From positions 1-40,412 of the forward strand of contig JAKBCO010000002.1 in the NCBI GenBank assembly GCA_021807785.1: a stretch of DNA of 40,412 nt. The letters run 5' to 3'. Positions within the stretch are counted from its first letter, which is position 1, and every line of letters starts with the position of its first letter. Origin of the DNA: Pseudomonadota bacterium. Lineage in GTDB: Bacteria; Pseudomonadota; Alphaproteobacteria; Acetobacterales; Acetobacteraceae. Below, piece after piece: positions 1 to 20,275 of the stretch. The position numbers and the translations under genes are program-made. Below the pieces are notes generated by a model, which made no database searches, was not told where the DNA came from, and saw only the letters and a program-made list of their open reading frames with translations.

Positions 1-87
1 GGGGCGGCGGGCGCGCAGCGCGGCGATGAGGCGGGCGCCGAGCGCGTCGCCCGAGGCTTCGCCGGCGATGAGGGTGAGGTGGGGCAC
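1..87 (-). CDS. lpxB: Lipid-A-disaccharide synthase LpxB, N-terminal fragment (truncated by window edge)
   Basis: Reverse complement of 87..1 reads GTG-start MPHLTLIAGEASGDALGARLIAALRARRP, matching the LpxB N-terminal signature (AGExSGDxLGAxLIxAL). Too short to appear in the ORF track. Confidence 0.75.
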   Translation of the reverse strand, partial: MPHLTLIAGEASGDALGARLIAALRARRP

Positions 88-286
88 GGGGCGAGTATAG
101 CGCGGGTCGGGCGGGGAGGGCGTGGATGCCGGGCAGGGCCGGGCTACGAAGGGCGTACGGCGCGGGCGGGCGGGTCCGGCGGGTTTCCGGGCATTCGGGG
201 GGCAAGGCGAGGGTGACCGTGGGGTGAGGCGTGGTGATGGACAAGCCACGACGGGACGTGAGAATAGGCAGGATCGGAGGTGGTGG

Positions 287-3200
287 ATGCGCCGGGTTGT
301 GTTCGTGGGCAACTGCCAAGTGGAGGCGTTGGGGCAACTGTACAGTCGGTTTGCCGGACGCGATGACGAGCGGGTGGATTATGTGCCCGGGTATGAGGAC
401 CTGACCCCGGAGCGGGCCGCGACGCTGGAAGCGGCCGACCTGATCGTGGAACAGCGGATGGACGTGGCGCCCAGGGCCGAACTGGACGGTATTCGGGCCG
501 AGGCGGAACGGCTGTTCGTGCCGCTGCTGGGCGGTGGGTTCGTGTGGCCATTCGCCGGGGCGCCGCATCCGCGGAACGAGTCGCTGTGGTTCCTGCACGG
601 CGGGCCGTATGACGGGGAGATCGGCGATAGCTGGCTCAACCGCGTGCTGGAGCGCGGGGAAGCGCCCGAGGACGCGGCGGCTGCCTATCTGGCGCTGGAC
701 GTGAACAGCGTGCGCAACCTGGATCGGCTGCGCGAGATTGTGATGGATCGGCAACGGGCGCGCGACGCGGCGTGTGGGTATCATCTGGCGGAGGTGATCG
801 AGGAGCATTTCCGTGACGAACCGGTGTTCCGTACGCCGCATCACCCCAATCTGCGGCTGACGCTGGCGTTTGCCGAGCAGGTGTTCGCGCGTATGGGGGC
901 GGAGCCCGGCGCAGTGCGACGGCTGCGGGAGCGGCTGCGGGTGACGCCGTTTCCGAAGAACGAGTTGCCGGTGCATCCCTCGGTTGCGGGACATTTCGGG
1001 CTGCGCTGGGCCGTACCGGACACGCGCTACCGATTTCATGACGAGGCCCCGCAGACATTCGCGGAATACGCGTTGCGGTATGCCCGCTATGAGTGGAACC
1101 GGGCGCTGGCCGAAGGGATCGCGCTGGCGGGCGAGCAGCCGGAGAAAGCGTTGCCCCTGCTGGCGGAGGGGCTGATCCGCTGTCCGGCCTCGGCCGGCGG
1201 GTGGTTCGGCTACGCGGAGGCCCTGCGCCGCTGCGGCCGGCCGCATGAGGCTGTCGCCGCGGGTCGGCGCGGGGTGGCGGCCGACCCGGCGGACGGGCGG
1301 CAGTTCTACGCCCTGGGTCATAGTCTAGCGGCGACAGAGCGCTACGCGGAAGCGGCGGAAGCGGCGGAACGGGCGGTGGAACTTGATCCGTTCGACGAAC
1401 ATTTCATCGGGCTTCGGGCGGCGATGGCAGTGAAGCTGGGGCGGCGCGATCAGGCCGAGGCTTGGCTTCGGGAGGCGCTGGCGCTGCTGCCCGACGCAGC
1501 GAGCCTGCACAACATGCTGGGCGCGGAACTGATGGCCTGGGGCCGGGTGGAGGAGGCGCTGGAGCCGCTACGGCGGGCAGCTGCGATCTCCCCCGCCGGA
1601 GGCTGGTTCCATATGGCTCTCAGCCACGGGTTGCTGCGTGCGGAGCGGTGGCAGGAGGCATTGCAAGCCGCGGAAATCGCAGCGTCGGCAGCGCCCGAAA
1701 ATTCGGAGATTGTCACTCATCTTGCGAACCTTCGCCAGCGCAAGGATCCCGAATTGGATATCGCAGCGTCATTGTGGGCAGCGATCATCGAGCGGCCGAA
1801 CGATCCGGCTCTACGTGAGCGGCTTGGGCATGTACTCATGGAGTCTGCCCGGCCAGAAGAGGCGGCCGAATGCTTTCGCGCCGCTGCGGCATTTGCCCCG
1901 GATGCGATGGGCCCGTTGGCCGGTCTCTCCCATGCTCTGACCCGGATGGGACAAATCCCAGCGGCGCTTGCCGCGGCGGAACAAGCAGCCATGCGGGATT
2001 CGAAGCCGGCACGGTTGCACGTGCATATTGGTAATTTGCTCCGGATTCTTGGTCGCCCACTAGAGGCGGCCGAAAAATATCGGCTGGCCCTAGTGCGCGA
2101 TCCAGAAAGCTTAGAGGCGCGGCAAAGACTCGACGAGGTTCTGGCGGAACAAAATACCGCGGGCGACGGACGGCCGCTCCCCATGCAGGCCGACGGCTAT
2201 GACGGGGCCGGTCCGCCTGCTGCCGAGGGGATCAAGCCAACGGTAGCCCCCGATGGCGTGCCGCCAAGCGATCCGGAGACCGTTCCAACAAAGGCACCGG
2301 ACGACGCTGCGCTTTATCAGCTGGATGAACGACGATTTATCGCCAATCGTCGAAGCGTGCCGTCCGTGCCGCCGTCGGAGGACTTTCCGAACGCGCATCC
2401 GCCAGGGGAGCCCACGGATTTCGCTCTACAGACTCAAAATGAGGGAGAATCGATCCCCTTGCTGACCCACACCACGACGGAACTGCGCTTCGGCGCCGCG
2501 GGCAATGCTGAGCCTTATCAGCTTCACGGCTGGTCTAGCGCAGAGGATGGTTTCACTTGGTCAATAGGGCACGAAAGTGCGCTGGTGCTGCCACCAGAGG
2601 CCGGAGCTCATGGCTTCTTTATCGAGCTGGCTCTGGCGCCCTTTATCGCACCGCCGCGGCTAGAACGACAACACCTCGAAATCCGTGCCAACGGCCAGTC
2701 AGCGGGACTGAGCGAGATCACGGAGGCCGGAACGTATGCGTGGTACATCCCAGGCCCGCCTCAGGAAGAGTCACACCTGGTCCTAACGTTTGCCCATGTG
2801 GACGCGCAGGCTCCCGCTGAAGTTACCAACAGCGGGGACACAAGAGTCCTGGGGTTTGCTTTCGAATCCGTCAGAATCCATGCACTTTCTGCAGCTGTTC
2901 CGGGAGGTACTGGACGGGTCTGCAACTTGCTGACCACCAGAAGTAGCAAAGACTTGGCCAGGCAAGTGGAGCGGCTCACTGGTCTGAACCAGCAGAGCCT
3001 TGCGCTTTTATTTGAAAGTCTCGGAGACAATTGCGAATTAGGGTTCTTCCAGCGGGTCTGCGGCGCGGAGCCGCTCGGATTGCTACGATTTTCGAGTGCC
3101 CGTCCCGAGGCAATGGTCCGGGGCCTGGACCAGAGATTTGCCGGATTGGGCGAAGCTGAGCACATAAAGCCACAAATCGAGAAGACTGAGTGGATGATTG

Positions 3201-3673
3201 CGGAAGATCGCTATGGGCTTCTGTACCATACCTTTGTGTTTGAGGGTGAAGCGACCGAGGAGCAGATGCGGTCACGTGAGGCCCGAAAGATAGCATTCCT
3301 CCGACGTAAATTTCTGGAAGACCTCGATTCCGGGGAGAAGATATTCGTCTGCAAAACGCATCGGCGGCGCGACTTGGCCGAGGTTATTCCTCTGTATCTG
3401 GCGTTCCGCCGACAATCGCGCGCACCGTTCCTGTGGCTGACCTATGCGGACTCGGCGCATCCCGCCGGCCTGGTAGAGGAACTGCATCCCGGTTTTCTTT
3501 GCGGCCGGATGGCGCGGTTTGCTCCCCCCGAGAATGTGCCAGAGATTCCGTTCGAAGCTTGGCTTTGTGTGTGCGCGAACGCGGCGATCCTCGCTGACCG
3601 CCTACCACCCCGTGCATGCCTCGCCATGCAAGATGACCTGGAGCCGCCCGCCGAGGCAGCGGAAGTCGCGTGA
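287..3673 (+). CDS. Modular protein: WcbI-like N-terminal domain, TPR repeats, beta-rich 'GWS' domain, C-terminal 'ESLGDNCE' domain
   Basis: ORF 122..3673. ATG at 287 is preceded by GGAGG (SD). N-terminus MRRVVFVGNCQVEALGQLY resembles WcbI (GNCQ motif). The middle has TPR-like A/E-rich repeats. C-terminus has FESLGDNCELGFFQRVCGAEPLGLLRF. Confidence 0.8.
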   Translation: MRRVVFVGNCQVEALGQLYSRFAGRDDERVDYVPGYEDLTPERAATLEAADLIVEQRMDVAPRAELDGIRAEAERLFVPLLGGGFVWPFAGAPHPRNESLWFLHGGPYDGEIGDSWLNRVLERGEAPEDAAAAYLALDVNSVRNLDRLREIVMDRQRARDAACGYHLAEVIEEHFRDEPVFRTPHHPNLRLTLAFAEQVFARMGAEPGAVRRLRERLRVTPFPKNELPVHPSVAGHFGLRWAVPDTRYRFHDEAPQTFAEYALRYARYEWNRALAEGIALAGEQPEKALPLLAEGLIRCPASAGGWFGYAEALRRCGRPHEAVAAGRRGVAADPADGRQFYALGHSLAATERYAEAAEAAERAVELDPFDEHFIGLRAAMAVKLGRRDQAEAWLREALALLPDAASLHNMLGAELMAWGRVEEALEPLRRAAAISPAGGWFHMALSHGLLRAERWQEALQAAEIAASAAPENSEIVTHLANLRQRKDPELDIAASLWAAIIERPNDPALRERLGHVLMESARPEEAAECFRAAAAFAPDAMGPLAGLSHALTRMGQIPAALAAAEQAAMRDSKPARLHVHIGNLLRILGRPLEAAEKYRLALVRDPESLEARQRLDEVLAEQNTAGDGRPLPMQADGYDGAGPPAAEGIKPTVAPDGVPPSDPETVPTKAPDDAALYQLDERRFIANRRSVPSVPPSEDFPNAHPPGEPTDFALQTQNEGESIPLLTHTTTELRFGAAGNAEPYQLHGWSSAEDGFTWSIGHESALVLPPEAGAHGFFIELALAPFIAPPRLERQHLEIRANGQSAGLSEITEAGTYAWYIPGPPQEESHLVLTFAHVDAQAPAEVTNSGDTRVLGFAFESVRIHALSAAVPGGTGRVCNLLTTRSSKDLARQVERLTGLNQQSLALLFESLGDNCELGFFQRVCGAEPLGLLRFSSARPEAMVRGLDQRFAGLGEAEHIKPQIEKTEWMIAEDRYGLLYHTFVFEGEATEEQMRSREARKIAFLRRKFLEDLDSGEKIFVCKTHRRRDLAEVIPLYLAFRRQSRAPFLWLTYADSAHPAGLVEELHPGFLCGRMARFAPPENVPEIPFEAWLCVCANAAILADRLPPRACLAMQDDLEPPAEAAEVA

Positions 3674-3725
3674 TGCGGGGCGGGCATGACCGCGGCAGCG
3701 AGCGTGACGGCCGGCTTGTCGGGGC

Positions 3726-4847
3726 ATGACCTGGCCGTTCGGCGACGGACCGATCGGCGTGTGGCTGGAACGTCGGCGGGCCATGGCGGCCCTCCGCCGC
3801 TCGGTTGCAGTAGAGCGGGACCTCCTTGCCCTGGACGAAGCCAACCCATTAAGCCAGGCGAAAGCGGCAGCCATGATCGGCGATAACGTGGGCGCTAGAC
3901 ATTATCTGGAACTCGCTCGGCGCCACATCCCGGCCTATGTGGAATCCAGTCCGGACACACTGGACACCCTGTTGACACTCGGCGACTTGAACGAGGCGGA
4001 GAGCCTGGCCGCGACTGGCAAGCGACGATACCCGCAACGGCCGGAATACGGCGAAGCGTATGCCACGGTGGCGGAGCGGCGGGGTGATTGGGCCGAAGCC
4101 GCGCGCCGTTGGACGATGGCGCGGAAGCGCTTCCCCCTCCGCCCCTTGCCTCGGGCGGCCGAGATTGCGTGCCTGCGTCGCCTCGGCCGGCTGGATCAAG
4201 CAGGCACGATGCTGCGGCGGGCGATGGGGGTTCTCCCAGAAGATGTATCGATTAAGCTGGAAAGCGGACGATTGGCTGAAGCGCACGGTGATTGGGCCAT
4301 TGCCCTCCAGCGCTGGTTGGAGCTGGCTGCCATCCATCCAGAAGGACCGATTGGAGCGGCCAACGCGCTGCACCAGTTGGGCCGGACGGGCGAGGCACTG
4401 ACGTGCCTTGCAGAGGCACGTTCGGCTTGGCCCCTGGAGCCTGCCATAGGGGTTGTAGCGGCCCGCATCGCCGCCAATGCCGGGCAAGTTGAGGAGGCAA
4501 TACGGGGCTGGGCCGATATACGTCGGCGGTTTCCCGGTGATCCGGGCGGCTATATTGAGGCTTTACGGCTGCTGCGGACCCTGAACCGCCTTGCGGAAGC
4601 GGAAGACGTGGCTGCCTTGGCCTGTGAGCAGTTCCCGGACGAATCCTGGCCTCTGGTGGAACATGCATTGGTGGCCCATTTGCGCCAGGACTGGCCCAAG
4701 GCGGCTGCGCGTTGGGAGGCAGTTCGTGCTGCGTTCCCTGACCGGGAGGACGGGTACCGGCACGGGATCGAGGCGCTTGAGAATGCCGGCGTGGCGGCTG
4801 ACGCAGAACGGTTACGGGAGGAATATCGTGCTCGCCATCGGGGATGA
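3726..4847 (+). CDS. Tetratricopeptide-repeat protein
   Basis: 373-aa ORF with recurring 'W..A..RW...R.RFP.....Y' helical-repeat pattern (e.g. GDWAEAARRWTMARKRFP, DWPKAAARWEAVRAAFPDREDGY). Confidence 0.75.
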   Translation: MTWPFGDGPIGVWLERRRAMAALRRSVAVERDLLALDEANPLSQAKAAAMIGDNVGARHYLELARRHIPAYVESSPDTLDTLLTLGDLNEAESLAATGKRRYPQRPEYGEAYATVAERRGDWAEAARRWTMARKRFPLRPLPRAAEIACLRRLGRLDQAGTMLRRAMGVLPEDVSIKLESGRLAEAHGDWAIALQRWLELAAIHPEGPIGAANALHQLGRTGEALTCLAEARSAWPLEPAIGVVAARIAANAGQVEEAIRGWADIRRRFPGDPGGYIEALRLLRTLNRLAEAEDVAALACEQFPDESWPLVEHALVAHLRQDWPKAAARWEAVRAAFPDREDGYRHGIEALENAGVAADAERLREEYRARHRG

Positions 4848-7800
4848 TATGGTTACAACGACAAAATCCCACGCGCTGACGCCCTGCGACTCTCGGGATC
4901 TGGATCTTGATTCGCTTGGGATCTTTGAGGGTACGGATAAATCCTCATTGGGAAACGATTACCTCCGAACCTACGAGGAGTTACTTCGGCCATATCAGAA
5001 CCTTCCGATCGACCTGATGGAAATCGGGATATTCGGTGGCGCCTCCCTTCGCATGTGGTCCGGTTGGCTTCCCCTGGCGCGCATCGTAGGCGTGGATATT
5101 TCCCCCCACTGCCGCGATCTTGCCGGAGACCGGGTCGTTATCGAGATCGGCTCACAAAGCGACGCGGCGTTCCTGGGAGAGTTGGCCCGCAAATACCGCC
5201 CCAGCGTCATCATCGACGACGGGTCCCACATCGCGTCCGATATCCAGGTGACGTTTCTGGCTCTGTTCCCTGTTCTGGAAGCCGGAGGCTTATACGTAAT
5301 CGAAGACACCTACATGCATTTCGGCCCAACCAGCGCCCATCATCAGGGATCGGCGGCGCTGTCGCTGTGGGACTATTTCTCCGCTCTTGCCCTCGGCAAG
5401 GCCCGGCAGTGGCTTGCTCCCGAAGCAGAAACCCCTGACCTCCGGAATTGTTTTGATCAGATCGACCGCGTTGCGTTTGCGAAAGGGATGATCGTTATCC
5501 ACAAGCGGGCCGCGGCCACGCAATCGGGCGCGGCTGCATCTGCGGCCGTGGAAATTGCGGCGGCACGCGGAACGGCCCAGAGCTGGTTCGGCGCGGCCGG
5601 TGTCCTGATGGCGCGTGACGGGGACGTCGCCGCCGCCGAAATGCTCGTGCGCCGTGCGATCAATGCCGACAGCCGCCAACCCGAATACCACAGACGCATG
5701 GCCGAGTTGCTCGCCCGCCAGGATCGTACTGCCGAGGCAGCAGCGGCGATGGGGCAAGCCGCATCGCTCGCGCCGAACGATCCTTATTACTGGGAACAGT
5801 CAGCCCGGCTACTCCGCGCAGTGGGTGATCTTCGGGGCGCGGCGGAAGCGGTCCGGCGTGGCCTCGCCCTGCATGACGCCAACCCGCACGCATATCGGTT
5901 ATTGGCCGAGATTCTCGAGGCGCTCGGTGATGCCGCGGGTGCGGCTGGCGCTTGGGAGCGCGCGTTGACGTTGGCTCACGGGCTGCCATATGCGAGGGAA
6001 TGGCAGGCTGCGGCCGAGGCGGCGGAGTCCGCTTTGCGCCCGTCCCCGCCCGACGCCCCCGCCAACCTGCCAGACATCGAACACGTATATACCTCGGAGG
6101 CACGAGTCCTCCGGGAAAGCGGCGACCATCCCGCCGCGGACGCCCTGCTGCTGCAAGCCATGGAGCGCTTCCCCGACAGCCGCAACCCGCTGACCGAATA
6201 TGCCTGGCGCGCGCAGGTCGCCCGCGACTGGCCGGAAGCCATCGCCCGGTGGGCCACGGTGCGCGCCCGCTTCCCCGACCACGCGGAAGCCTATGTCCAG
6301 CCCGCGCGCGCGCTTGCCGAACAATGGCGCTACCAGGACGCCGAAATCTTGCTCGCGGAAGGCATGGTCCGCCTGCCCCATGCGGCCGAGATCGCGATGG
6401 AGCATGGCTGGCTCGCCTACCGGCAGCGCAACTGGCCCGACGCGACGCTGCGGTTTTCGTTATTGCGCGACCGCTGGCCCGATCAGCCCGATGCCTGGCT
6501 TGGCGCGGCGCTGACCGCGCGCGACCAGTCCATGCAGCAGGAAGCGGACAGGATTCTCGCCCTCGGCATGGCGCGGCTGCCGGACCATCCCGGCCTCGCG
6601 CTGGATTACGCGCTGCTACCCGTCTTTCCGATCCGTGCAGAGGACAAGAACCGGCCGGAGGCGCTGGCGCGCATGGCCCGCGTGCGGGAGCGGTTTCCGG
6701 ATTATGAGCCGGGCTATCTGCACGGCATCCGCCTTCTGCGCGAAGCGGGCCAACCGCCGGCGGCCGAGGCGCTGGCCGGCGAAGGCGCCGCCGTCATGCC
6801 GGAAAGCCTCGCCCTGGCGCTGGCTTTCGCCGAGGCCGCGCTCGATCGCGATGACGCCGCCACCGCTGCCTCCCGTTATCAGGACGCCGCGGTTCGGTTT
6901 CCGCTGTCTCCCGACGTTGCCGCCGGACATGCGCGCGCGCTGGCCCGGGCGGGAGATGGCGCGGCGGCCGAGGCGGTGCTGGCAACGGCGATGGAACGCT
7001 TCCCCGATTCCGCCGCGCCATTGGCGGAGCGCGCCGACCTCGCGGCACGCCGGCAGGACTGGCCCGAGGCCGTGCGCCTCTGGGGCGAGGCGACCACGCG
7101 CTTCCCCGAGACGAAAGACTACAGCCATCGGCTTTATGAGGCACGTATCCGGTTGATGGAGACCGATCCGGCCGCGGAGTCGGCGCTCGTCGCGCAGTTC
7201 GCCCCCGCCCCGAAGCCCGATCCCGACAGTATCGACAGCGGCGTGCGCGATCTGGCGATGCAGTTCGAGAGTCTGGGCGGGCGCGCGCTGGGATGCGAAT
7301 TCGGCATTTTCCAGCGCGACTGCGGGGCCGAGCCGCTCGGCCTCCTGCGTTGGGCGGACATGCCCTATGACGGGCTTGTCCGGGTCCTGGAGAATCGTTT
7401 CGAGGGTGTCGGAGCCCCCGAAAACACCGAGCTTTTCCTGACTGCCGTGAGCGGCGGACGCGGCGAATATTGCACGCGTGATCGCCGCGGCGACATGATG
7501 TTCATGCGTGCCTTCATCTACGAGGACGAAATGGCGTTCGATGCCATGTACGCCTCTGCCTGCCGACGGCTCACGTTCCTGACCCGCAAGTTCGTCGAGG
7601 ATCTGGAGCGAGGCAGTAAGATTTTCGTCTATCGGCTGACCGATCGCGCGCTGAGCGCCGAAGAACTCGACCGGTTGCACCGCGCCATGCGGGCTTATGG
7701 TAAGAACACGCTGCTATACGTCCAACTCGCTGATGCGTCGCATCCGAATGGAACGGTGGAACAGGCCGCTCCGGGTCTGTTGATGGGCTATATGGATCGC

Positions 7801-7902
7801 TTCAAGATGTCGCCTTCTGGTCAGTTGTCCGCTGCGCCCGCCACGGCATCCTGGCTTGCGGTATGCAGGGCCGCGTACGCATTGTGGTCGGTCACCGTCT
7901 GA
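4828..7902 (+). CDS. Fusion: class I SAM-dependent (MycE-like sugar O-) methyltransferase, TPR repeats, C-terminal 'ESLG..CEFG' domain
   Basis: ORF 4591..7902. Likely start GTG 4828 (SD GGGAGGA just upstream) or ATG 4849, overlapping the previous stop. Motifs MEIGIFGGASLRMWSGW, IIDDGSHIASD and GGLYVIEDTYMHF resemble MycE-type methyltransferases. About 10 TPR-like units follow, then CEFGIFQRDCGAEPLGLLRW. Confidence 0.8.
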   Translation: MLAIGDDMVTTTKSHALTPCDSRDLDLDSLGIFEGTDKSSLGNDYLRTYEELLRPYQNLPIDLMEIGIFGGASLRMWSGWLPLARIVGVDISPHCRDLAGDRVVIEIGSQSDAAFLGELARKYRPSVIIDDGSHIASDIQVTFLALFPVLEAGGLYVIEDTYMHFGPTSAHHQGSAALSLWDYFSALALGKARQWLAPEAETPDLRNCFDQIDRVAFAKGMIVIHKRAAATQSGAAASAAVEIAAARGTAQSWFGAAGVLMARDGDVAAAEMLVRRAINADSRQPEYHRRMAELLARQDRTAEAAAAMGQAASLAPNDPYYWEQSARLLRAVGDLRGAAEAVRRGLALHDANPHAYRLLAEILEALGDAAGAAGAWERALTLAHGLPYAREWQAAAEAAESALRPSPPDAPANLPDIEHVYTSEARVLRESGDHPAADALLLQAMERFPDSRNPLTEYAWRAQVARDWPEAIARWATVRARFPDHAEAYVQPARALAEQWRYQDAEILLAEGMVRLPHAAEIAMEHGWLAYRQRNWPDATLRFSLLRDRWPDQPDAWLGAALTARDQSMQQEADRILALGMARLPDHPGLALDYALLPVFPIRAEDKNRPEALARMARVRERFPDYEPGYLHGIRLLREAGQPPAAEALAGEGAAVMPESLALALAFAEAALDRDDAATAASRYQDAAVRFPLSPDVAAGHARALARAGDGAAAEAVLATAMERFPDSAAPLAERADLAARRQDWPEAVRLWGEATTRFPETKDYSHRLYEARIRLMETDPAAESALVAQFAPAPKPDPDSIDSGVRDLAMQFESLGGRALGCEFGIFQRDCGAEPLGLLRWADMPYDGLVRVLENRFEGVGAPENTELFLTAVSGGRGEYCTRDRRGDMMFMRAFIYEDEMAFDAMYASACRRLTFLTRKFVEDLERGSKIFVYRLTDRALSAEELDRLHRAMRAYGKNTLLYVQLADASHPNGTVEQAAPGLLMGYMDRFKMSPSGQLSAAPATASWLAVCRAAYALWSVTV

Positions 7903-7908
7903 GGCGGG

Positions 7909-9111
7909 TCAGACGCTCCCTGTCCGTATCCGATGCAGCGCCACCCCCAGCGGTCGGCGCTCCGGCGTGGCCGGGTTCAACGCCACCGGGGTCCGCAAAT
8001 CGCGCGGCCGTAGTTCCACCGCCAGCTGCCCGCCCCCTTCCGCCAACATGGTCCGTGCCGGCACACGCACGGAACGAACCGCACGGTTCTCGGCCGCCGT
8101 AAATCGCCAGGTCGCAATGAGCTCGCCGCCGGCCAGTACGTCCACCTCTTGCGTGGTCCGCGCCCCCAGCAAGGAGGCATGGACATCGAGGCTCAGGCTC
8201 AGGTCTCGTTCCGGCTCCACAAGCACTGGGATCAGCAGCGTGTGCGCCGGGCCGATTCCCCATACGCCCCAGTCCTCGGCGGCACTCCACCCGGCACCCA
8301 GCCAGTCCGAAAGCCCGCCATGGGCGGCGGACTGCCACATGCCATAAACCGGCGCCTGCCCCGCCGGCTTGGCGCGGGCCTTGCGCGTGACCACGCTGCC
8401 GGCGCCATCGGTCAGGGGAATCAGGGATTCGGGCTTGTCGGCGAAGAACTCATCCACCGCGCGCTCCGCCCCGTCCCAATGCAGGCTGGAGTAGTCATGC
8501 ACGATGATGAAGCCGCCGGGGGACATGCGGGGGTAGAAATAGTCCAGCGCCGCCTTGATGGGCGCATAGAGGTCGCAATCGATATGCACCAGCGCATAGC
8601 GTGCGCCGGGCGGCAGGTTGGCGGCGGTGGCGGGAAAATACCCCTTCACGAACACGACACTTTCGCCGCCAACCAGACTCCGCACCGATTCCAGCGAGGT
8701 ATCGGCGAATTCCATTTGCTTGTCGGCGTCGATGCCGGCCAGATCGGCGGCGGCGAAGCCCTCGAACGTGTCCAGCACGTAAAGCGTCCGGCCCAGCTTG
8801 CGCGCCATGGTTGCCAGCACGGTGGCGGTGCCACCCTTGTAGGTGCCCAATTCCAGGAACTCGCCCGGCACGTCCTCCTTGGCAAGCTGGTCGAGAATGA
8901 GGCAGAAGAAATAGAATCGCGCCATATCGCCGGCATTGCCCGGCTCGGCGGCAAGAAATCCGGCGACGTCCTCATGCGGGCGGGCCAGACCGCCGCGCTC
9001 CAGGTAGCGCGCGAACATGCCGTCCTGGCGCTTCAGCCGCTGCGGCGGATCGGCGCGATAGGGCCAGTGGACGTCGCAGCCTTCGGGCGGCGGCTTGATT
9101 TCACCTGGCAT
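7909..9111 (-). CDS. TylF/MycF-like O-methyltransferase with C-terminal beta-rich 'GWS' domain
   Basis: ATG at 9111 (MPGEIKPPPEGC...). TylF-type motifs: FLELGTYKGGTATVLATMARKLGRTLYVLDTFEGF, ALVHIDCDLYAPIKAALDYFYPRMSPGGFIIVHDY. C-terminal GAGWSAAEDWGVWGIGPAHTLLIP module. Confidence 0.85.
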   Translation of the reverse strand: MPGEIKPPPEGCDVHWPYRADPPQRLKRQDGMFARYLERGGLARPHEDVAGFLAAEPGNAGDMARFYFFCLILDQLAKEDVPGEFLELGTYKGGTATVLATMARKLGRTLYVLDTFEGFAAADLAGIDADKQMEFADTSLESVRSLVGGESVVFVKGYFPATAANLPPGARYALVHIDCDLYAPIKAALDYFYPRMSPGGFIIVHDYSSLHWDGAERAVDEFFADKPESLIPLTDGAGSVVTRKARAKPAGQAPVYGMWQSAAHGGLSDWLGAGWSAAEDWGVWGIGPAHTLLIPVLVEPERDLSLSLDVHASLLGARTTQEVDVLAGGELIATWRFTAAENRAVRSVRVPARTMLAEGGGQLAVELRPRDLRTPVALNPATPERRPLGVALHRIRTGSV

Positions 9112-9125
9112 CCGTCCCCGCCCGA

Positions 9126-10376
9126 TCAAACCGAAGCGGGCAGGCCCGGGTAATGCCCGGTCGTGTGCAGGTGCCCGTTCCGCTCCCGCACCCCTAGATC
9201 CACCCCTTCCGCGAACAAAGGCGCCAGCCGCTTCGGGCAATAATGCGTGACCAGGCTCTTGCGCGTCACCTCGGCCGAGACCGGATTGCCGCCATGCACC
9301 AGGTCGGCGTGCCAGATCAGCGCATCGCCGCGCCGGGCCGCGAAGGGGCGCTTCTCCAGGCCCCATTCGGCGGCGCGCGCCTCCAGCCCCGCCACATGCA
9401 GGGAAACCGCGGCGCGCGGGTCGGCCAGCGCATCCATCCGCATCGCCTCATGCACGCTTTTGTAGGCGCCGGCATAGAGGTAATCCGGAAAGCGGTGGCT
9501 GCCGGGGTAATAGAACAATTCCCCCGCGCCCAGGGTCACGTCCTCCAGCGCGATCCAGGACGCGGCGAAGCAGCGGCCGATGGTATAGGGAACATAGGCG
9601 CTGTCCTGATGCCCCTCCTGCGCGGAGCCGCGCAGGAAGCCCAGCGTCTGGCTGGCGAAGGCGTGGCTCTCGAAGATCAGGCCCAGGAACTGGGTGACGG
9701 CGGGGCAGAACATCAACGCCCGGGTGGCGGGGGAGAAATGATGGATGTCCAGCGCCTTGGCCGGGTGCTGCGCCACCTCCGGCTGCCAGAAGATCCGCTG
9801 GGGGGAGATCGGATGACACTCGAACAACAGGTCCGGGAAGCCGCCGACATAGGCATGGTCGAGGTCGGCGGCGGCGGCGGCGACCTGCGCGTCCGATGCC
9901 GCGCCGCGCAGAATCACGTAGCCGTTGGCGCGCCAGAACCGCAGCAGCTCGGCGTCCCGTTCCGTGATGCGGCCGGTTTCCAGCTTGCCTTCGATCAGGT
10001 CCTCGGCGTTCGGCAGGTCGGGCCACAGGCCGCCGAAGCGCGGGGGGGCGGCGGGGTTGGCCGGGCGCGGGGCGGCGGGGTTGGGCAGAAAGCCGCGGGC
10101 GTGGCCCAGGCGGCGGTAATGGTCGAAGGCGTCGGCGGCGTGGCCGGCGGCGATCTCGGCGGCGGCCAGCGGGTAGGCGCGCAGGTAGAAGCCGGCGTCG
10201 AAATCATTCGGCAGGCGGCCCTCGGCGCGGCCGTGGCGGCGGTAATGGTCCCACGCGCTGAGCGCGTGGCCGCGGGCGATCGCCTCGCCGATGTCGGGGT
10301 AGAGGCGCAGATAGGCCGCCTCGTCGAAGGCGGCCAGGTCGGGATGTTCGGCAGCTGGGGGGTCCACCGCGTCCAT
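9126..10376 (-). CDS. Phytanoyl-CoA dioxygenase (PhyH) family protein with two N-terminal 'AYLRLYPD' repeats
   Basis: 416 aa. RANGYVILRGA...HQDSAYVPYTIGRCFAASWIALEDVTLGAGELFYYPGSHRFPDY is a PhyH-type Fe(II)/2OG core. The N-terminus has two ~40-aa tandem repeats (FDEAAYLRLYPDIGEAIARGHALSAWDHYRRHGRAEGRLPN / FDAGFYLRAYPLAAAEIAAGHAADAFDHYRRLGHARGFLPN). Confidence 0.85.
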   Translation of the reverse strand: MDAVDPPAAEHPDLAAFDEAAYLRLYPDIGEAIARGHALSAWDHYRRHGRAEGRLPNDFDAGFYLRAYPLAAAEIAAGHAADAFDHYRRLGHARGFLPNPAAPRPANPAAPPRFGGLWPDLPNAEDLIEGKLETGRITERDAELLRFWRANGYVILRGAASDAQVAAAAADLDHAYVGGFPDLLFECHPISPQRIFWQPEVAQHPAKALDIHHFSPATRALMFCPAVTQFLGLIFESHAFASQTLGFLRGSAQEGHQDSAYVPYTIGRCFAASWIALEDVTLGAGELFYYPGSHRFPDYLYAGAYKSVHEAMRMDALADPRAAVSLHVAGLEARAAEWGLEKRPFAARRGDALIWHADLVHGGNPVSAEVTRKSLVTHYCPKRLAPLFAEGVDLGVRERNGHLHTTGHYPGLPASV

Positions 10377-10402
10377 GGCGCGTCCTCCGCACGGGCAAGC
10401 GC

Positions 10403-10412
10403 GTTATATAAC
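10403..10412. promoter_or_regulatory. Candidate shared promoter element in divergent intergenic region (perfect palindrome GTTATATAAC)
   Basis: The most AT-rich stretch in the ~120-bp gap between divergent PhyH and FkbH genes. TATATAAC can read as a -10-like element on either strand. Confidence 0.3.
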
Positions 10413-10495
10413 CCCGCCGCGCCGCTTGTCATCCGTGCCTCGACACCGCCCATCGCGCCCGCCATGCTGCACCGCACTCCCCGGGACCCCGCCCC

Positions 10496-12349
10496 ATGCG
10501 CCACCTCCCGCCTCCCCCGCCCGAGTTCCGCGCCCGCCTCGCCGCCCTGCCGGAAGACCCGCGCGCGGCGTGGGACGCGCTCACCGCGCTCGCCACCCAC
10601 GCCCTCTCCCCGTTGCAGACCAACGCGCTGGACGCGGCCCTCACCGCCCGCTTCCCCACCCCGCCGGCCTTCGCGCCGGCCGCGCCGGTCCGCCTCGCCC
10701 TGCTCGGCTCGGCCACCACCGAGCATCTGGCGCCCGGCCTGCGCGTGGCGGCCCTGCGGCGCGGCATCCCGCTCGCGCTGTGGCAGCCCGATTACGGGCA
10801 GTATCAGGCGGCGCTGGAAGGGCCGGACCCGGCGCTGGCGGAGTTCGCGCCGCAGGTGGTGCTGCTGGCACTCGATGCGCATCACCTGGCGCGGGAGGCC
10901 GCTTCGGGCAGCGTGGACGTGCTGCTCGACCGGCTGGCGGGGCTGTGGGCGCGGGCCCGCGCGCTGGGCGCGGTGGTGATCCAGCAGGCGGCGCTGCCGG
11001 TGGCCCCGCCGCTGCTGGGCGCCAACGAACATCGGCTGGCCGATTCCCCCGCCGCCTTCCTCGCCGCCTTCAACGCGGCGCTGCGGGCGCGGGCCGATGC
11101 CGAGGGGGCGCATGTGCTGGCGCTGGATGCCGAGGCGGCGCAGGCGGGCCTGGGGGCGTGGTACAACCCGACCTACTGGCACCTCGCCAAGCAGGAGATC
11201 GCGCCGGCCGCGGCGCCCGCCTATGGGGAGCTGGTGGGGCGGCTGCTGGGGGCGATCCGCGGGCGCAGCGCGAAATGCCTGGTGCTCGATCTCGATAACA
11301 CGCTCTGGGGCGGGGTGATCGGGGATGACGGGATGGAGGGGATCGTGCTCGGCCAGGGGTCGGCCGCGGGGGAGGCGTATGTGGCGCTGCAACGCCACGC
11401 GCGCGGGCTGGCCGGGCGGGGGGTGATCCTGGCGGTCTGCTCCAAGAACGACGAGGCGGTGGCGCGCGAGCCGTTCGCCAGCCACCCCGACATGGTGCTG
11501 CGGGAGGCGGATATCGCCTGCTTCGTGGCGAACTGGGGGCCGAAGCCGGATAATCTGCGGCGGATCGCGCGGGAGCTGAATATCGGCCTCGATGCGCTGG
11601 TGTTTCTCGACGATAATCCGATGGAGCGGGACCTGGTGCGCCGGGAACTGCCGATGGTGGCGGTGCCGGAGACGTCGGACGACCCCGAGCAATCGATCGC
11701 CGCCCTGGTCGGGGGCGGGTATTTCGAAAGCCTGAGCATCACCGAGGAGGATCGGGAGCGGACCGCGCTCTACGGGGCGAACCGGGCGCGCGAGGCGCTG
11801 CGGGAGCAGACCACCGATCTGGCGGGGTATCTGCGCGGGCTCGAGATGCGGCTGATCTGGCGCGGGTTCGACGCGGTGGGGATGGCGCGGATCGTCCAGC
11901 TCATCAACAAATCGAACCAGTTCAACCTGACCACGCGGCGCTATACCGAGGAGGACGTGCGCGCGGTGATGGCCGATCCGGCCGCGTTCGGCGTGCAGCT
12001 GCGGCTGCTGGACCGGTTCGGCGACAACGGGGTGATCGCGATCGTGATCGGGCGGGTGGACGCCGAGGGGGATTGCGATATCGACACCTGGCTGATGTCC
12101 TGCCGGGTGCTGGGCCGGCAGGTGGAGCCGACCACGCTCAATCTGCTGGCGGCGCGCGCGGCGGCGCTGGGGGCGAAGCGGCTGGTGGGGCGCTATGTGC
12201 CGACGAAGAAGAACGGTATGGTGAAGGACCATTACGCGAAGCTGGGCTTCGCCCCGGTGGGGGAGACGCCGGACGGCGGTAGCCGGTCGGTGCTGGAACT
12301 GGCGGGTTTTCAGCCGGCCGAGACATTCATCGAAGTTGTGGAAGGATAG
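10496..12349 (+). CDS. FkbH-like HAD-IIIC family protein (glyceryl-transfer type) with N-terminal SGNH-like region
   Basis: KCLVLDLDNTLWGGVIGDDG, CSKNDEAVA, LDALVFLDDNPMERDLVRRELP, INKSNQFNLTTRRYT, DTWLMSCRVLGRQVE: hallmark FkbH motifs. Confidence 0.9.
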   Translation: MRHLPPPPPEFRARLAALPEDPRAAWDALTALATHALSPLQTNALDAALTARFPTPPAFAPAAPVRLALLGSATTEHLAPGLRVAALRRGIPLALWQPDYGQYQAALEGPDPALAEFAPQVVLLALDAHHLAREAASGSVDVLLDRLAGLWARARALGAVVIQQAALPVAPPLLGANEHRLADSPAAFLAAFNAALRARADAEGAHVLALDAEAAQAGLGAWYNPTYWHLAKQEIAPAAAPAYGELVGRLLGAIRGRSAKCLVLDLDNTLWGGVIGDDGMEGIVLGQGSAAGEAYVALQRHARGLAGRGVILAVCSKNDEAVAREPFASHPDMVLREADIACFVANWGPKPDNLRRIARELNIGLDALVFLDDNPMERDLVRRELPMVAVPETSDDPEQSIAALVGGGYFESLSITEEDRERTALYGANRAREALREQTTDLAGYLRGLEMRLIWRGFDAVGMARIVQLINKSNQFNLTTRRYTEEDVRAVMADPAAFGVQLRLLDRFGDNGVIAIVIGRVDAEGDCDIDTWLMSCRVLGRQVEPTTLNLLAARAAALGAKRLVGRYVPTKKNGMVKDHYAKLGFAPVGETPDGGSRSVLELAGFQPAETFIEVVEG

Positions 12350-12355
12350 CCCGCG

Positions 12356-12598
12356 ATGCCGACCGAGACCGAGATCACCGCCGGGCTGTCCGAGATTTTC
12401 GCCGAGGTCTTCGGCCGCGAGATCGCCCTCATTCCGGCGCTGACCGCCAAGGACGTGCCGGGGTGGGACAGTTTCAAGCAGATCGAGATCATCATGGCGA
12501 CCGAGGAGCGCTGGGGGATGCGCTTCACCACCCGCGATCTGGACGGGCTGCGCTGCGTGGGCGATCTGATCGCGGTGGTGGCGGCGAAGGGGAAGTAG
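12356..12598 (+). CDS. Acyl carrier protein
   Basis: 80 aa. VPGWDSFKQIEIIMATEERWGMRF contains the DSF/DSL-type phosphopantetheine serine. Starts 6 bp after the FkbH stop. Confidence 0.88.
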   Translation: MPTETEITAGLSEIFAEVFGREIALIPALTAKDVPGWDSFKQIEIIMATEERWGMRFTTRDLDGLRCVGDLIAVVAAKGK

Positions 12599-12602
12599 CG
12601 GC

Positions 12603-13742
12603 TCACCCGCCATCCGCCACCCGCGCGGCCTGGACGCAGAGCGCGAGCCAGGTTTCCAGCGCCACGTCGTGCGCCGAGGCGAGCGGGGCGAAGTGCTCGA
12701 TATACCCGCAGATCAGCCCCTCCGGCGTGACCCGGAGGGTACCCGGCGGATGGTCTGGCCCGGCCGGCAGCACGCCCAGCAGCCGGGCGCGCGGGTGGTG
12801 GCGGCGCAGCGCGGCCAGCACCGCCAGCAGTTCCGGCTCGGACAGGCCGTCATTGCGCTTGATGACGAAGATTTTGCGGCCCTCGGCCAGATCCTCGAGC
12901 AGCTTGCGGCGCAGGAAGCGCAGGCGGGTGGCCTGACGCGGGATCAGCTCCGGTTCCGCCACGTCGGTGGGGTTGAGGAAGGTGTGGAAGGTCAGCGCAT
13001 AGGCGCGATCGTGGATCAGGTATTCGGGATGGCCGCCGCCCTCGATACGGTAGGTCATGTTGGCGGGCTCGCCGATCCCCTGGAAGCCGGCATCGAGGCC
13101 CCGCACCAGCTCCGCCGCGGAAATGGCAGACCAGCGCAGCAGGCCGAGCGGCTCCGCCCCGCAGCGGCGCTGCACCAGGCCGAATTCGCAATTGTCCCCC
13201 AGGCTCTCGAACCGCAGCAGGAAACGTTCCGCCGGCAGGCCGGTCAGGTGGGCGAGATCCTCTGGCCGCACCGGCTCACCCGGCGGCAGGCGGGCCGGGG
13301 TGCCGAGGGCGGGCAGCGCCATCAGCCGCAGGCCGCGGAAGCAGAACCCCAGGCGGCGGGTATCGTCGGGGTGGCCGAAGCCGGTGGGCGGGGTGGCGTC
13401 CGGGTGGCGGAAGACCAGCCGCACCGGCCCCGGGGCGGACAGCACGGCGGCGGGGATGCGGAAGGCCAGGGTGCGGAGGTCGCCGAACGCGGCGCTGCCG
13501 ATCCGGTTGCCGCGCGCCAGCACCTCGAACCGCTGCGCCGCCAGCGCCGGCGGGTGGACATAGGGGTTGAGCGTGAGTTCGAGCCCCCAATCCGTGGCAT
13601 CGCCGGGGTTTTCCAGCCAGAACTCGCTTTCCGCGCCCTCGGCCCAGCGATAGCCGGCCTCGGGGCCGGACCAGCCGGGGCCGAGATGGGTTTGCTCGTT
13701 GCCGTCCTGGCCGAAGCGGATGTCGAGCCACGGCACGGTCAC
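12603..13742 (-). CDS. Two-module protein: beta-rich 'GWS' domain + 'ESLGDNCEFG' domain
   Basis: Within ORF 12603..16022. Plausible GTG start at 13742 (VTVPWLDIRFGQDGNEQTHLGPGWSGPEAGY...). C-terminal FESLGDNCEFGLVQRRCGAEPLGLLRW. Sequence upstream of 13742 in that ORF is antisense to the pseudokinase gene. Confidence 0.8.
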   Translation of the reverse strand: MTVPWLDIRFGQDGNEQTHLGPGWSGPEAGYRWAEGAESEFWLENPGDATDWGLELTLNPYVHPPALAAQRFEVLARGNRIGSAAFGDLRTLAFRIPAAVLSAPGPVRLVFRHPDATPPTGFGHPDDTRRLGFCFRGLRLMALPALGTPARLPPGEPVRPEDLAHLTGLPAERFLLRFESLGDNCEFGLVQRRCGAEPLGLLRWSAISAAELVRGLDAGFQGIGEPANMTYRIEGGGHPEYLIHDRAYALTFHTFLNPTDVAEPELIPRQATRLRFLRRKLLEDLAEGRKIFVIKRNDGLSEPELLAVLAALRRHHPRARLLGVLPAGPDHPPGTLRVTPEGLICGYIEHFAPLASAHDVALETWLALCVQAARVADGG

Positions 13743-13820
13743 GCCTGGGCCTCCTCTGCGGCCGGATCGGCGGCAGTTTAGCCGGTCCGGCGGAAAGCGG
13801 CAGGGGCGTCGCCTTCCGCC

Positions 13821-13837
13821 GTTGCCGTTTCGGCAAC
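13821..13837 (+). promoter_or_regulatory. Perfect stem-loop (GTTGCCG-TTT-CGGCAAC) followed by CTTTTCC in the leader of the pseudokinase gene
   Basis: 7-bp perfect inverted repeat with 3-nt loop, 23 bp before the ATG at 13860. Confidence 0.4.
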
Positions 13838-13859
13838 CTTTTCCCCCCATCCTCCCGCC

Positions 13860-15809
13860 ATGGCCGCCCTTCCCGACGCCATCGCCGTCGATCCCGCGCG
13901 CCCGCTCCCGGGCGCCGGCGGCGGCCTGCCCGCCTGTGCGGCCATCGACCGGCGCGCCACCGGCCCCGGGCTGATGGCGCTCGCGGTGCCGGCTGGCCTC
14001 TCCCCCCGCGCGCGCCCGCTCGCGGACCTGCCGGGCAAGCCGATCGAATCGCTGCTGCTGCCGCTGGGCCTCGCCACCGCGCCCGGCCCGGCGCCGGGGG
14101 CTCGGGGGCAATATGTCATCTGCCGCGCCCCGCCCGGCCCGGCACTGGCGGAAACCCCGGGCCCCTGGCCGGAGGCGGCGCTGCTGGACCAGGTGCTGCG
14201 CCCGGCCGCCGCCGCGCTCGCCGCGCTCGCCGCGCTGGGGCTGACCCATCGCGCCATCCGCCCCGACAACGTCTTCCGCCCCGCCCCCGGCCAGCCGGTC
14301 ACCCTGGGTGCCGCCTGGGCAGCGCCGCCGGCGATGCACCAGCCCGCCATCGCCGAACCCCCCTATGTCGCCATGTGCCTGGCCGAAGGCCGCGGCGACG
14401 GCCACCCGGCCGACGATGTCTATGCGCTCGGCGTGCTGCTGCTTTGTCTCGCCCTCGGCGAGGCGCCGCTGATCGGGCTGAGCCCGGACGCGATGATCCG
14501 CGCCAAGCTCGCCCATGGCAGTTTCGACGCGCTGACCGCCGGCCGCCGCCTGCCGGCGCTGCTGTCGGACCTGCTGCGCGGGATGCTGGCCGAGGACCCG
14601 GACCACCGCCCGCCCGCCGCGCTGCTGGCCGACCCGATGGCCGCGCGGGCCCGGCGCCTGGCCGCCCGCCCGCCGCGCCGCGCCGCCCATGGGTTGCGCG
14701 TGGGCGCCGAGCCGGTGGGCGATGCGCGCAGCCTGGCCTACGCCATCGCCACCGCGCCGGAGGCCGGGCTGCGCGCGCTGCGCTCCGGTGCCACCGATCT
14801 GTGGCTGCGGCGGGAGCTGGGCGACTCCGCGCTGGCGATGCGCCTCGAGGAACAGCTGCATCTGCGCGCCCTCCCGCCGGCCGAGGCGAGCTCGGCCGCC
14901 GAGGCGCTGCTGCTCGCCCGGGCGGTGGCGATTCTCGATCCGCTGGCCCCGCTCACCTGGCAGGGGATGGCGCTGTGGCCGGACGGGCTGGGCCCGGCGC
15001 TGGCTTCCGCCCCGCCCGATCGCCAGCGCGCGCTGGGGGCGATGGTGGCGGCCGAGACGGTGGCCGCCTGGGGCGAGGCGCGGGCGCAGCGGGCGGATCC
15101 GCTGCCGCGCCGGGCCGAGGCGCGGCTGTGGCGCGGCTACCTGACCCAGCCCGGCGCGGCGGGCGGAATGCGGCGGCTGATCTACGAGCTCAACCGGCTG
15201 CTGCCCTGCGCCAGCCCGGCGGTGGCGGGGCAGGCGGTGGCGCAGCTGGCCGCGCTGCCCGCCGCGCTGGAGGCCGCGGCCGCGGCGCCGTCCCGCTCGG
15301 CGGCGGGGCCGGTGGACCGCGAGATGCTGGCGTTCATCGCCGCCCGCCAGGAGCTGGGCGCGGCGCCGCCGCCGGAGACGCTGGGCGCCGATGGCGCGCC
15401 GACGCCGGAGACCCAGCTGGAATTGCTGGCCCGGTTGCAGGCGCGGCTGCACCCGGTGCCGCTGCCGGCGTTGGCCGGCTGGCTCGCCGCCCTCGCCGCC
15501 CCGCGCCCGTCCGAATGGCGCAATCCGGCGCGCCGGGTCGCGCTGGCCGCGCAGCTGGACCAGCTCGCAACCGCGGGAATGCTGGCGCCGATGCTGGCCG
15601 CGCTGCGCGACCCTAGCGCGCTGGCCGCGGATGCGACCGGCTATGCCGCCGCCAGCGCCGAATGCGCGCAGCTGGACGCGGCCCTGGCGGCGCTGGCCGA
15701 GGGCGGCGCCGGGCGTGCGGCCTCCGCCCGCCGGCTGGGGCAGGAGCTGGCGGTGGGGCTCGGCATCGCCGCGCTGACCACGGTGCTGGGGATGGCCCTG
15801 TTTGGCTAG
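13860..15809 (+). CDS. Degenerate Ser/Thr protein kinase-like protein (probable pseudokinase) with C-terminal membrane segment
   Basis: 649 aa. LGLTHRAIRPDNVF is in the catalytic-loop position (HRD changed to HRA). DDVYALGVLLLCLALGEAPL and LSDLLRGMLAEDPDHRPPAALLADP resemble the kinase C-lobe. C-terminus LAVGLGIAALTTVLGMALFG is hydrophobic. Confidence 0.7.
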   Translation: MAALPDAIAVDPARPLPGAGGGLPACAAIDRRATGPGLMALAVPAGLSPRARPLADLPGKPIESLLLPLGLATAPGPAPGARGQYVICRAPPGPALAETPGPWPEAALLDQVLRPAAAALAALAALGLTHRAIRPDNVFRPAPGQPVTLGAAWAAPPAMHQPAIAEPPYVAMCLAEGRGDGHPADDVYALGVLLLCLALGEAPLIGLSPDAMIRAKLAHGSFDALTAGRRLPALLSDLLRGMLAEDPDHRPPAALLADPMAARARRLAARPPRRAAHGLRVGAEPVGDARSLAYAIATAPEAGLRALRSGATDLWLRRELGDSALAMRLEEQLHLRALPPAEASSAAEALLLARAVAILDPLAPLTWQGMALWPDGLGPALASAPPDRQRALGAMVAAETVAAWGEARAQRADPLPRRAEARLWRGYLTQPGAAGGMRRLIYELNRLLPCASPAVAGQAVAQLAALPAALEAAAAAPSRSAAGPVDREMLAFIAARQELGAAPPPETLGADGAPTPETQLELLARLQARLHPVPLPALAGWLAALAAPRPSEWRNPARRVALAAQLDQLATAGMLAPMLAALRDPSALAADATGYAAASAECAQLDAALAALAEGGAGRAASARRLGQELAVGLGIAALTTVLGMALFG

Positions 15810-16272
15810 GAAAGCGAAACCCAAGGAGCGCCCGACGGCCCCGCGCACCGAGGCGCCGGGGCGGTCGCTGGCCTGGGTCCAGGGTTTGGCCTGCGGGGCG
15901 CTGGTGGCGATGGCGCCCGGCTTCGCGGTGCTGGGGGGGGTGCTGGGCGCGCCGTCCTGGGTGGCGCTGGCGCTGGATCGCGCCGCCGGGCGGCCGGTGC
16001 TGCGCAGCGTGGCGCTGTGCAACGCGGCTGCCTGCGTCGCCCCGGTGCGCGCCTTCTGGGCCGGCGGGCACGGGCTGGATGCCGCCTGGGCGGTGGTGGG
16101 GGGGCCGCTGGTGCTGGCGCTCGCCTGGGGCGCGGGGGCGGCGGGCTGGGCCCTGGCCGAGGTCTGCCCGTTAGGGGTGCGGCTGGTGCTGGAAGCCGCC
16201 GCCGCCGCGCGGGCGGTGCGGCTGCGGGCCCGGCGCGCGGCGGTGGCGAAGGAGTGGGCGCTTCAGGATTGA
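15802..16272 (+). CDS. Small predicted membrane protein, translationally overlapping the pseudokinase gene
   Basis: TTG start at 15802 overlaps the upstream stop by 8 bp. Hydrophobic segments LACGALVAMAPGFAVLGGVLGA and AAWAVVGGPLVLALAWGAGAAGWAL. Confidence 0.6.
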   Translation: MARKAKPKERPTAPRTEAPGRSLAWVQGLACGALVAMAPGFAVLGGVLGAPSWVALALDRAAGRPVLRSVALCNAAACVAPVRAFWAGGHGLDAAWAVVGGPLVLALAWGAGAAGWALAEVCPLGVRLVLEAAAAARAVRLRARRAAVAKEWALQD

Positions 16273-19359: not shown

Positions 19360-20244
19360 TTATTTGCCGTCCCGGATCGAGAAATGACCCAGCCGTTCGA
19401 TCGCCTTGATCAGCGCCGAATGGTCCTGCTCGCCCTCGCCATGCGCCGCGCAGGAGGACATCAGCTGCTGGGCGATCGCGGTGTTGGGCAGCGACAGGTT
19501 GAGCGCCCGGGCCGAGGCCAGCGCCAGATTCAAATCCTTCTGGTGCAGCCGGATACGGAACCCCGGATCGAACGTGCCCTGGATCATGCGCTCGGCGTGC
19601 AGCTCCAGGATGCGCGAGGCGGCGAACCCGCCCGAGATCGCCTGGCGCACCTTGGCCGGGTCGGCGCCGGCGCGGGCGGCGAAGACCAGCGCCTCCGATA
19701 CCGCCTGGATGTTCAGCGCGACGATGATCTGGTTGGCGACCTTGCAGGTCTGCCCCGCCCCCACCGGGCCGACATGGGTGATGTTCTTGCCCATCACCTC
19801 GAACAGCGGCTTCGCGCGGGCGAAGCCGGCCTCGGTCCCGCCGGCCATGATGGTCAGCGCCGCGTTCTTCGCCCCCACCTCGCCGCCGGAGACCGGGGCA
19901 TCGACATACTCGCAGCCGAGCGCGGCGATCTTCTCCGCGAACGCCTTGGTCTCGATCGGGCTGATCGAGGACATGTCGATCACCAGCGAGCCGGGCTTCA
20001 GGCCGGCCGCGGCCCCGCCGGCGCCGAACAGCGCCGCCTCGACGTCCTGGGTATCGGGCACCATCAGGATCACCACCTCGGAGGCGGCGGCGACCGCCTC
20101 GGAGCTGGGCAGCACGGTGGCGGCGGCGCGGAGCTCCGCGGTCAGGCTGGCCCGCTCGGGCACCGCGAGCGTGTGGCCGGCGGCCTTCAGGTTGAGCGCC
20201 ATGGGGCGGCCCATGATGCCGAGGCCGATGAAACCGATCTTCAT
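19360..20244 (-). CDS. glxR: 2-hydroxy-3-oxopropionate (tartronate semialdehyde) reductase
   Basis: MKIGFIGLGIMGRPMALNLKAAGH, VDAPVSGGEVGAKNAALTIMAGG, GAGQTCKVANQIIVALNIQAVSEAL: beta-hydroxyacid dehydrogenase motifs. Adjacent to hyi. Confidence 0.88.
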   Translation of the reverse strand: MKIGFIGLGIMGRPMALNLKAAGHTLAVPERASLTAELRAAATVLPSSEAVAAASEVVILMVPDTQDVEAALFGAGGAAAGLKPGSLVIDMSSISPIETKAFAEKIAALGCEYVDAPVSGGEVGAKNAALTIMAGGTEAGFARAKPLFEVMGKNITHVGPVGAGQTCKVANQIIVALNIQAVSEALVFAARAGADPAKVRQAISGGFAASRILELHAERMIQGTFDPGFRIRLHQKDLNLALASARALNLSLPNTAIAQQLMSSCAAHGEGEQDHSALIKAIERLGHFSIRDGK

Positions 20245-20275
20245 GCGCGGATATCTCCTGTTCGGGACGAAACGG

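Follow-up and report, generated by a model that had tools for sequence, protein, structure and literature searches.

The nearest biological precedent for the locus described here is the flagellin glycan locus of Campylobacter jejuni, in which a gene with an FkbH domain accompanies a methylated glyceric acid on a sugar. The flagellar glycans of this species bear dimethylglyceric acid and the glycosylation locus (cj1295/cj1302) holds an FkbH gene, so methylated glyceric acid does exist on a bacterial glycan in the setting of such a gene (PMC7099621). The correlation between gene and phenotype is weak: in one strain without dimethylglyceric acid the FkbH gene is a pseudogene, but a second strain without the acid has not lost the gene (PMC7099621). 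Pairs of FkbH and an acyl carrier protein (ACP) have an established role in supplying extender or starter units in polyketide clusters (PMC7489565). WcbI of Burkholderia pseudomallei binds CoA tightly, forming an adduct via Cys14; alone the protein is inactive, with no acetyltransferase activity in vitro, and a requirement for a partner has been suggested (PMC4104973). Alike in outline is BtrH, an ACP:aminoglycoside acyltransferase, whose acyl donor is an ACP and whose acceptor is a sugar compound (PMC10318531).

Our locus is likened to that of C. jejuni by its FkbH gene; PMC7099621 mentions no WcbI and neither of the modules that we name ESLG and GWS. It shares its loader family and a stand-alone ACP with methoxymalonyl and tetronate systems, but unlike these it has no polyketide synthase (PKS), FkbI/FkbK dehydrogenases or FabH-like tetronate enzyme. 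Its WcbI domain belongs to the same Pfam family as the B. pseudomallei capsule protein and has the cysteine in its N-terminal GNCQ motif; it is, however, fused to TPR-GWS-ESLG and linked to an ACP and FkbH, whereas the B. pseudomallei protein, the only one for which CoA binding is reported, has been proposed to use acetyl-CoA. In the Dlt system, a dedicated loader (DltA) and carrier (DltC) serve envelope decoration together with the MBOAT enzyme DltB; our locus has no MBOAT gene and its loader is FkbH, and it is FkbH-ACP-MBOAT loci elsewhere that resemble Dlt. Two such Dlt-like ACP-FkbH-MBOAT sets, with FkbH as the loader, lie near polysaccharide or glycan genes on Sinorhizobium meliloti pSymB (L156) and on a Rhodobacteraceae plasmid (L159).

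Gene content and modules of the locus

The window, the whole stretch of DNA analysed (40,412 nucleotides), is one contig (C321) from a 3.2 Mb draft assembly with 88% completeness. At positions 287-13742 we found eight tightly packed genes, A to H, arranged in four blocks (A-B-C forward, E-D reverse, F-G forward, H reverse) with intergenic gaps of 1-120 bp (Table 1). An earlier note had described a modular eight-gene locus on both strands here, and all the parts that it named were confirmed as open frames with the expected domains. Genes were called with a simple codon-usage script. Neither Rfam nor a tRNA search gave a match in the window. All eight proteins lack strongly hydrophobic segments and so look cytoplasmic.

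Table 1. Genes of the locus, with window coordinates of their domains and the evidence for each.
Gene	Length and type	Position	Strand	Domains	Evidence
A	1128 aa	287..3673	+	WcbI 299-907; TPR repeats; GWS 2486-2893; ESLG 2993-3589	Pfam WcbI and TPR; module HMMs
B	373 aa, TPR protein	3726..4847	+		Pfam TPR
C	1017 aa	4849..7902	+	MycE-like O-methyltransferase 4849-5553; TPRs; altered ESLG 7246-7887	PDB 3ssm; TPR; ESLG HMM
D	400 aa	7909..9111	-	TylF/MycF-type O-methyltransferase 8356-9111; GWS 7918-8334	Pfam TylF; MycF 4x7u; module HMM
E	416 aa	9126..10376	-	Two YLRxYP repeats 10080-10334; PhyH Fe(II)/2-oxoglutarate dioxygenase	Pfam PhyH; EvdO2
F	617 aa, FkbH-type ACP-loading enzyme	10496..12349	+		TIGR01686; PDB 3slr; motifs
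G	80 aa, acyl carrier protein	12356..12598	+	GWDSF phosphopantetheine site	PP-binding and ACP NCBIfam matches
H	379 aa, GTG start	12603..13742	-	GWS 13308-13721; ESLG 12618-13226	Confident model; relative in L036

The left end of the contig truncates the neighbourhood of the locus. A minus-strand frame at this edge (window 1-112), upstream of gene A, is what we take to be an LpxB-like N-terminus. The lpxB gene is usually preceded by lpxA or lpxI, neither of which lies on the upstream side of this frame. The adjoining lpxB had been offered as a link to the envelope; the putative LpxB-like frame, of which the first ~37 codons are present, is weak evidence because the loci of relatives sit elsewhere. 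On the other side, the kinase-like gene I (13860-15809) was excluded from the system, being kept only in the close relative L036 among the loci searched; it adjoins H there too, and matches the defence kinase MAD6 weakly (E 2e-13, far below the cut-off).

The product of gene F scored 313.9 bits against TIGR01686 (cut-off 146.65, E 1e-93), matched 3slr in a PDB sequence search (E 8e-60) and has intact HAD motifs (LDLDNTLWGG, VCSKN and FLDDNPMER). The PP-binding score of gene G (18.9 bits) is slightly below the 20.8 cut-off, but the protein matches ACP models of NCBIfam and its GWDSF site is intact. Judged by its family, the FkbH of gene F would most likely load a glyceryl unit from 1,3-bisphosphoglycerate onto this adjacent stand-alone ACP. 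The genes examined include no PKS, NRPS or FkbI/FkbK, in agreement with the earlier note, and Pfam found neither the FkbI and FkbK dehydrogenases nor FkbG of the methoxymalonyl-ACP cassette among the locus genes. At a distance of 6 kb (19363-21055), a HIBADH-type dehydrogenase, of a different family from FkbI/FkbK, stands beside a xylose-isomerase-like TIM barrel (both by Pfam); the two presumably resemble the GlxR-Hyi pair making D-glycerate and are probably separate from the locus.

Genes C, D and E encode candidate modifying enzymes. Gene C had been called MycE-like, which holds for the catalytic half, matched by MycE 3ssm at E 7.4e-24 (MycE residues 173-331); the N-terminal auxiliary half is missing, as the gene begins at the catalytic half. 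Gene D matched TylF (PF05711) at 84.4 bits (cut-off 23), with an intact HIDCDLY motif, and MycF 4x7u at E 9e-12, while gene E matched PhyH at 57.6 bits (cut-off 22), with its HxD/H iron motif present as GHQD and WHAD, and EvdO2 at E 3e-5 (both PDB matches by sequence search). The MycE, TylF and PhyH genes vary from locus to locus in other genomes and are optional accessories outside the conserved core.

Two unnamed modules, ESLG and GWS, occur in three copies each (ESLG in A, C and H; GWS in A, D and H), bearing out the recurrent unexplained domains of the earlier note. ESLG, a name coined here, spans ~210 aa with the motif FESLGxNCEFGxxQR and has a near-invariant Cys-Glu pair, the Cys being present in 106 of 108 alignment rows; the copy in gene C is altered (ESLGGRALGCEFG): its motif contains an insertion, and Arg stands where most copies carry His. 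The module was found nowhere else in this assembly. Gene H, which has no Pfam or NCBIfam match, is 85% identical to a relative in L036 that adjoins ACP-FkbH, and a search with it placed the closest named relatives in Acetobacteraceae. Profile comparison suggests remote homology between ESLG and DUF1796 (PF08795), a family for which a search of one literature library found no paper: hhalign against five DUF1796 proteins gave 92% (E 7e-7; 91% with a longer alignment), and DUF1796 was the best Pfam match among 63 ESLG relatives (E 0.0094), with none of the three window copies reaching its Pfam cut-off.

Structure prediction, proposed in the earlier note as a check, gave confident AlphaFold models for gene H (pLDDT 94.3) and for ESLG alone (pLDDT 95.8, pTM 0.91) but brought no known fold for the latter, which had no PDB match at E ≤ 0.001 (best 2g6t, E 0.018) and whose 50 best matches included no papain fold; the ESLG sequence profile had no PDB match either. 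Both BtrH and the name that Pfam gives to DUF1796 had pointed to a papain-type acyltransferase identity, and the best match in a viral library fold search was a giant-virus protein named papain-like cysteine peptidase, a name also used for DUF1796. We rejected this identity because the confident model has no papain match in the PDB, and as BtrH is papain-like, we keep it as a functional analogy only and not as a homologue. BtrH_N (PF14399) had no match in the locus proteins or their own genome, and one such gene was found across 96 genomes. The GWS half of the gene H model (GWS, also our name, is ~140 aa) matched CBM36, EclA sugar-binding and cellulose synthase BcsB domains, and GWS is predicted to be a CBM-like sandwich. 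The WcbI domain of gene A (PF18588) scored 52.1 bits (cut-off 29.2) with VGNCQ at residues 7-11, and its sequence search of the PDB returned a spurious lectin match only. Because an ACP bears the same pantetheine arm as CoA, acyl-ACP is a natural guess for the WcbI donor.

Linkage of ESLG, FkbH, ACP and WcbI across genomes

In many genomes, the linkage of ESLG, FkbH, ACP and WcbI greatly exceeds what chance would give. Among 200 genomes of the family (mean genome size assumed to be 4.3 Mb), ESLG and FkbH lay within 3 kb of each other 21 times against 0.17 expected, WcbI and FkbH 7 times against 0.10, and WcbI and ESLG were paired 8 times against 0.23. As a control, TylF lay within 3 kb of FkbH twice and within 10 kb five times, of ~145 (tables read by hand); this weak linkage indicates that glycan-gene status alone does not account for the associations above. 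A second control, CTP_transf_3, was near no FkbH gene among the matches listed. At the genome level, FkbH was present in 31 of 46 genomes with ESLG against 27 of 154 without (hand counts, Fisher test). These linkage tests ignore the relatedness of the genomes; even so, well-supported branches of the ESLG tree force at least 9 changes of the FkbH-linked label, and parsimony gives 17. The earlier note had named a lack of conserved co-occurrence as one refutation of its reading; conserved co-occurrence was found, so the reading was not refuted on this count. Literature searches that combined FkbH with polysaccharide or with WcbI turned up no account of the linkage.

We also fetched 80 ESLG loci by similarity to gene H, some of them on short contigs. 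An ACP gene lay within 4 kb of ESLG in 30 of these: 16 with FkbH, 9 with an AMP-binding ligase (three confirmed as PF00501) and 5 with neither in range. Matches to the ACP model, which was trained on ACPs adjoining FkbH, numbered 30 in the 597 kb near ESLG and none in the 637 kb farther out (14 against none in loci without FkbH), and 13 ACP genes lay within 100 bp of ESLG. Since the loader is FkbH in some loci and a ligase in others, ESLG follows the ACP with its loader rather than FkbH alone. Among loci chosen by FkbH, 17 of 40 had ESLG within 9 kb, in 16 of them within 2 kb. WcbI and the DUF1796-like family thus travel with a carrier protein and a loading enzyme.

Several observations count against the explanation that we favour below. 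The other 50 ESLG loci, some on short contigs and many in Methylobacterium, have no nearby ACP or loader, nor do most WcbI loci (2 of 20 in the remainder sample); FkbH-ACP without ESLG or WcbI also occurs, even in draft genomes of the same genus; and some other loci have an obvious acyltransferase in the form of an MBOAT enzyme. In the Methylobacterium loci (e.g., L062, L064 and L071), ESLG is a stand-alone gene and neither an ACP nor a loader lies within 10 kb.

Two one-strand layouts recur among the loci chosen by FkbH: TPR-ESLG, FkbH, ACP and GWS-ESLG, FkbH, ACP. WcbI joins such sets in several arrangements: FkbH-ACP-WcbI are consecutive in Niveispirillum; GWS-WcbI, WcbI, ACP, GWS-ESLG and FkbH lie within 5.5 kb in L172; a WcbI-ESLG fusion like that of gene A adjoins an ACP in L180; and L210 has AMP ligase-ACP-WcbI. 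In L177, FkbH-ACP-WcbI-WcbI is accompanied by two true DUF1796 genes (13264-15980), which connects canonical DUF1796 with this neighbourhood as well. Elsewhere, GT61, GT9-TylF, sulfotransferase or GSCFA domains occur fused to GWS or ESLG, plasmid-borne ESLG relatives adjoin glycosyltransferases, sulfotransferases and UDP-galactopyranose mutase, and some other FkbH-ACP pairs adjoin polysaccharide export genes. The earlier note had seen no glycosyltransferase, which is true of the scanned flanking genes in the window, but the loci of relatives carry them. In L123 and L127, the genes that come after FkbH-ACP encode a GT2-GT9 protein of 1530 aa and a small protein with YLRxYP repeats; the L123 set adjoins what we take to be an rpsB-like gene.

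Candidate function and alternatives

This recurrent modular system is real, and its general purpose has reasonable support. Its best reading is a glyceryl-type decoration of a glycan, because the linkage is conserved and the neighbours and fusion partners are glycan enzymes. The small glyceryl- or methyl-type decoration first proposed is thus partly supported; the methyltransferases and PhyH fall outside the conserved core.

As a fuller scheme, to which we give slightly better than even chances, the locus would encode a cytoplasmic glycan-decoration system. Going by its family, FkbH (F) would charge the ACP (G) with a three-carbon unit, for which D-glyceryl from 1,3-bisphosphoglycerate is the likeliest candidate. 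The linkage suggests that the WcbI and ESLG modules of A, C and H, carried on TPR and CBM-like GWS scaffolds, pass the acyl group from the ACP to a sugar. The MycE-like (C) and TylF-type (D) enzymes may add O-methyl groups and PhyH (E) may oxidise the sugar or the acyl group, judging by their families, so tailoring a glycan precursor in the cytoplasm, and the finished unit would enter an exported or protein-linked glycan, the final target and the order of steps being conjectural. More tentatively, it is possible that ESLG/DUF1796-like proteins and WcbI are two cysteine-dependent families of acyl-ACP:glycan acyltransferases in a modular system that swaps its loader (FkbH in some loci, an AMP ligase in others), its carrier and its transferase to change the acyl group on surface sugars.

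The strongest competitor, which we regard as unlikely, keeps FkbH-ACP as the supplier of an acyl group to a glycan but makes WcbI and ESLG substrate-binding scaffolds or hydrolases, leaving the transfer to an unlinked acyltransferase such as an MBOAT enzyme. MBOAT genes do adjoin FkbH-ACP in S. meliloti, the Rhodobacteraceae plasmid and L175/L188, ESLG and WcbI often occur without an ACP, and WcbI was inactive as an acetyltransferase in vitro (PMC4104973); Pfam, however, found no MBOAT gene among the locus genes in the window, ESLG tracks the ACP even where the loader changes, and it has a near-invariant Cys-Glu pair.

The same chemistry could instead act on a protein-linked glycan, of flagellin or a surface-layer protein, in which case the TPR parts would recognise the acceptor protein. 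We find this quite doubtful: TPR-ESLG fusions do recur beside FkbH-ACP and flagellin bears the glycan that is the nearest precedent (PMC7099621), but a casual inspection of the loci noticed no flagellar gene, and the plasmid ESLG relatives keep company with the glycosyltransferases, sulfotransferases and mutase noted above. It is very improbable that FkbH-ACP makes a methoxymalonyl- or glyceryl-ACP extender or starter unit for a small molecule, the established role in polyketide clusters (PMC7489565), given that the genes examined include no PKS, NRPS or FkbI/FkbK dehydrogenase pair and that the neighbours across genomes are glycan genes. Just as improbable, and already disfavoured, is chance adjacency of unrelated genes in a variable glycan island: the accessory MycE, TylF and PhyH genes differ between loci, but linkage reaches 10 to 120 times expectation at distances often below 100 bp, domain fusions exist and the TylF control is much more weakly linked.

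WcbI, a solved structure without an assigned partner or activity, and DUF1796 are offered a concrete, testable substrate by their repeated linkage to an ACP and its loader. This linkage suggests that bacteria commonly vary their surface sugars through carrier-protein chemistry other than that of fatty-acid and polyketide synthesis.
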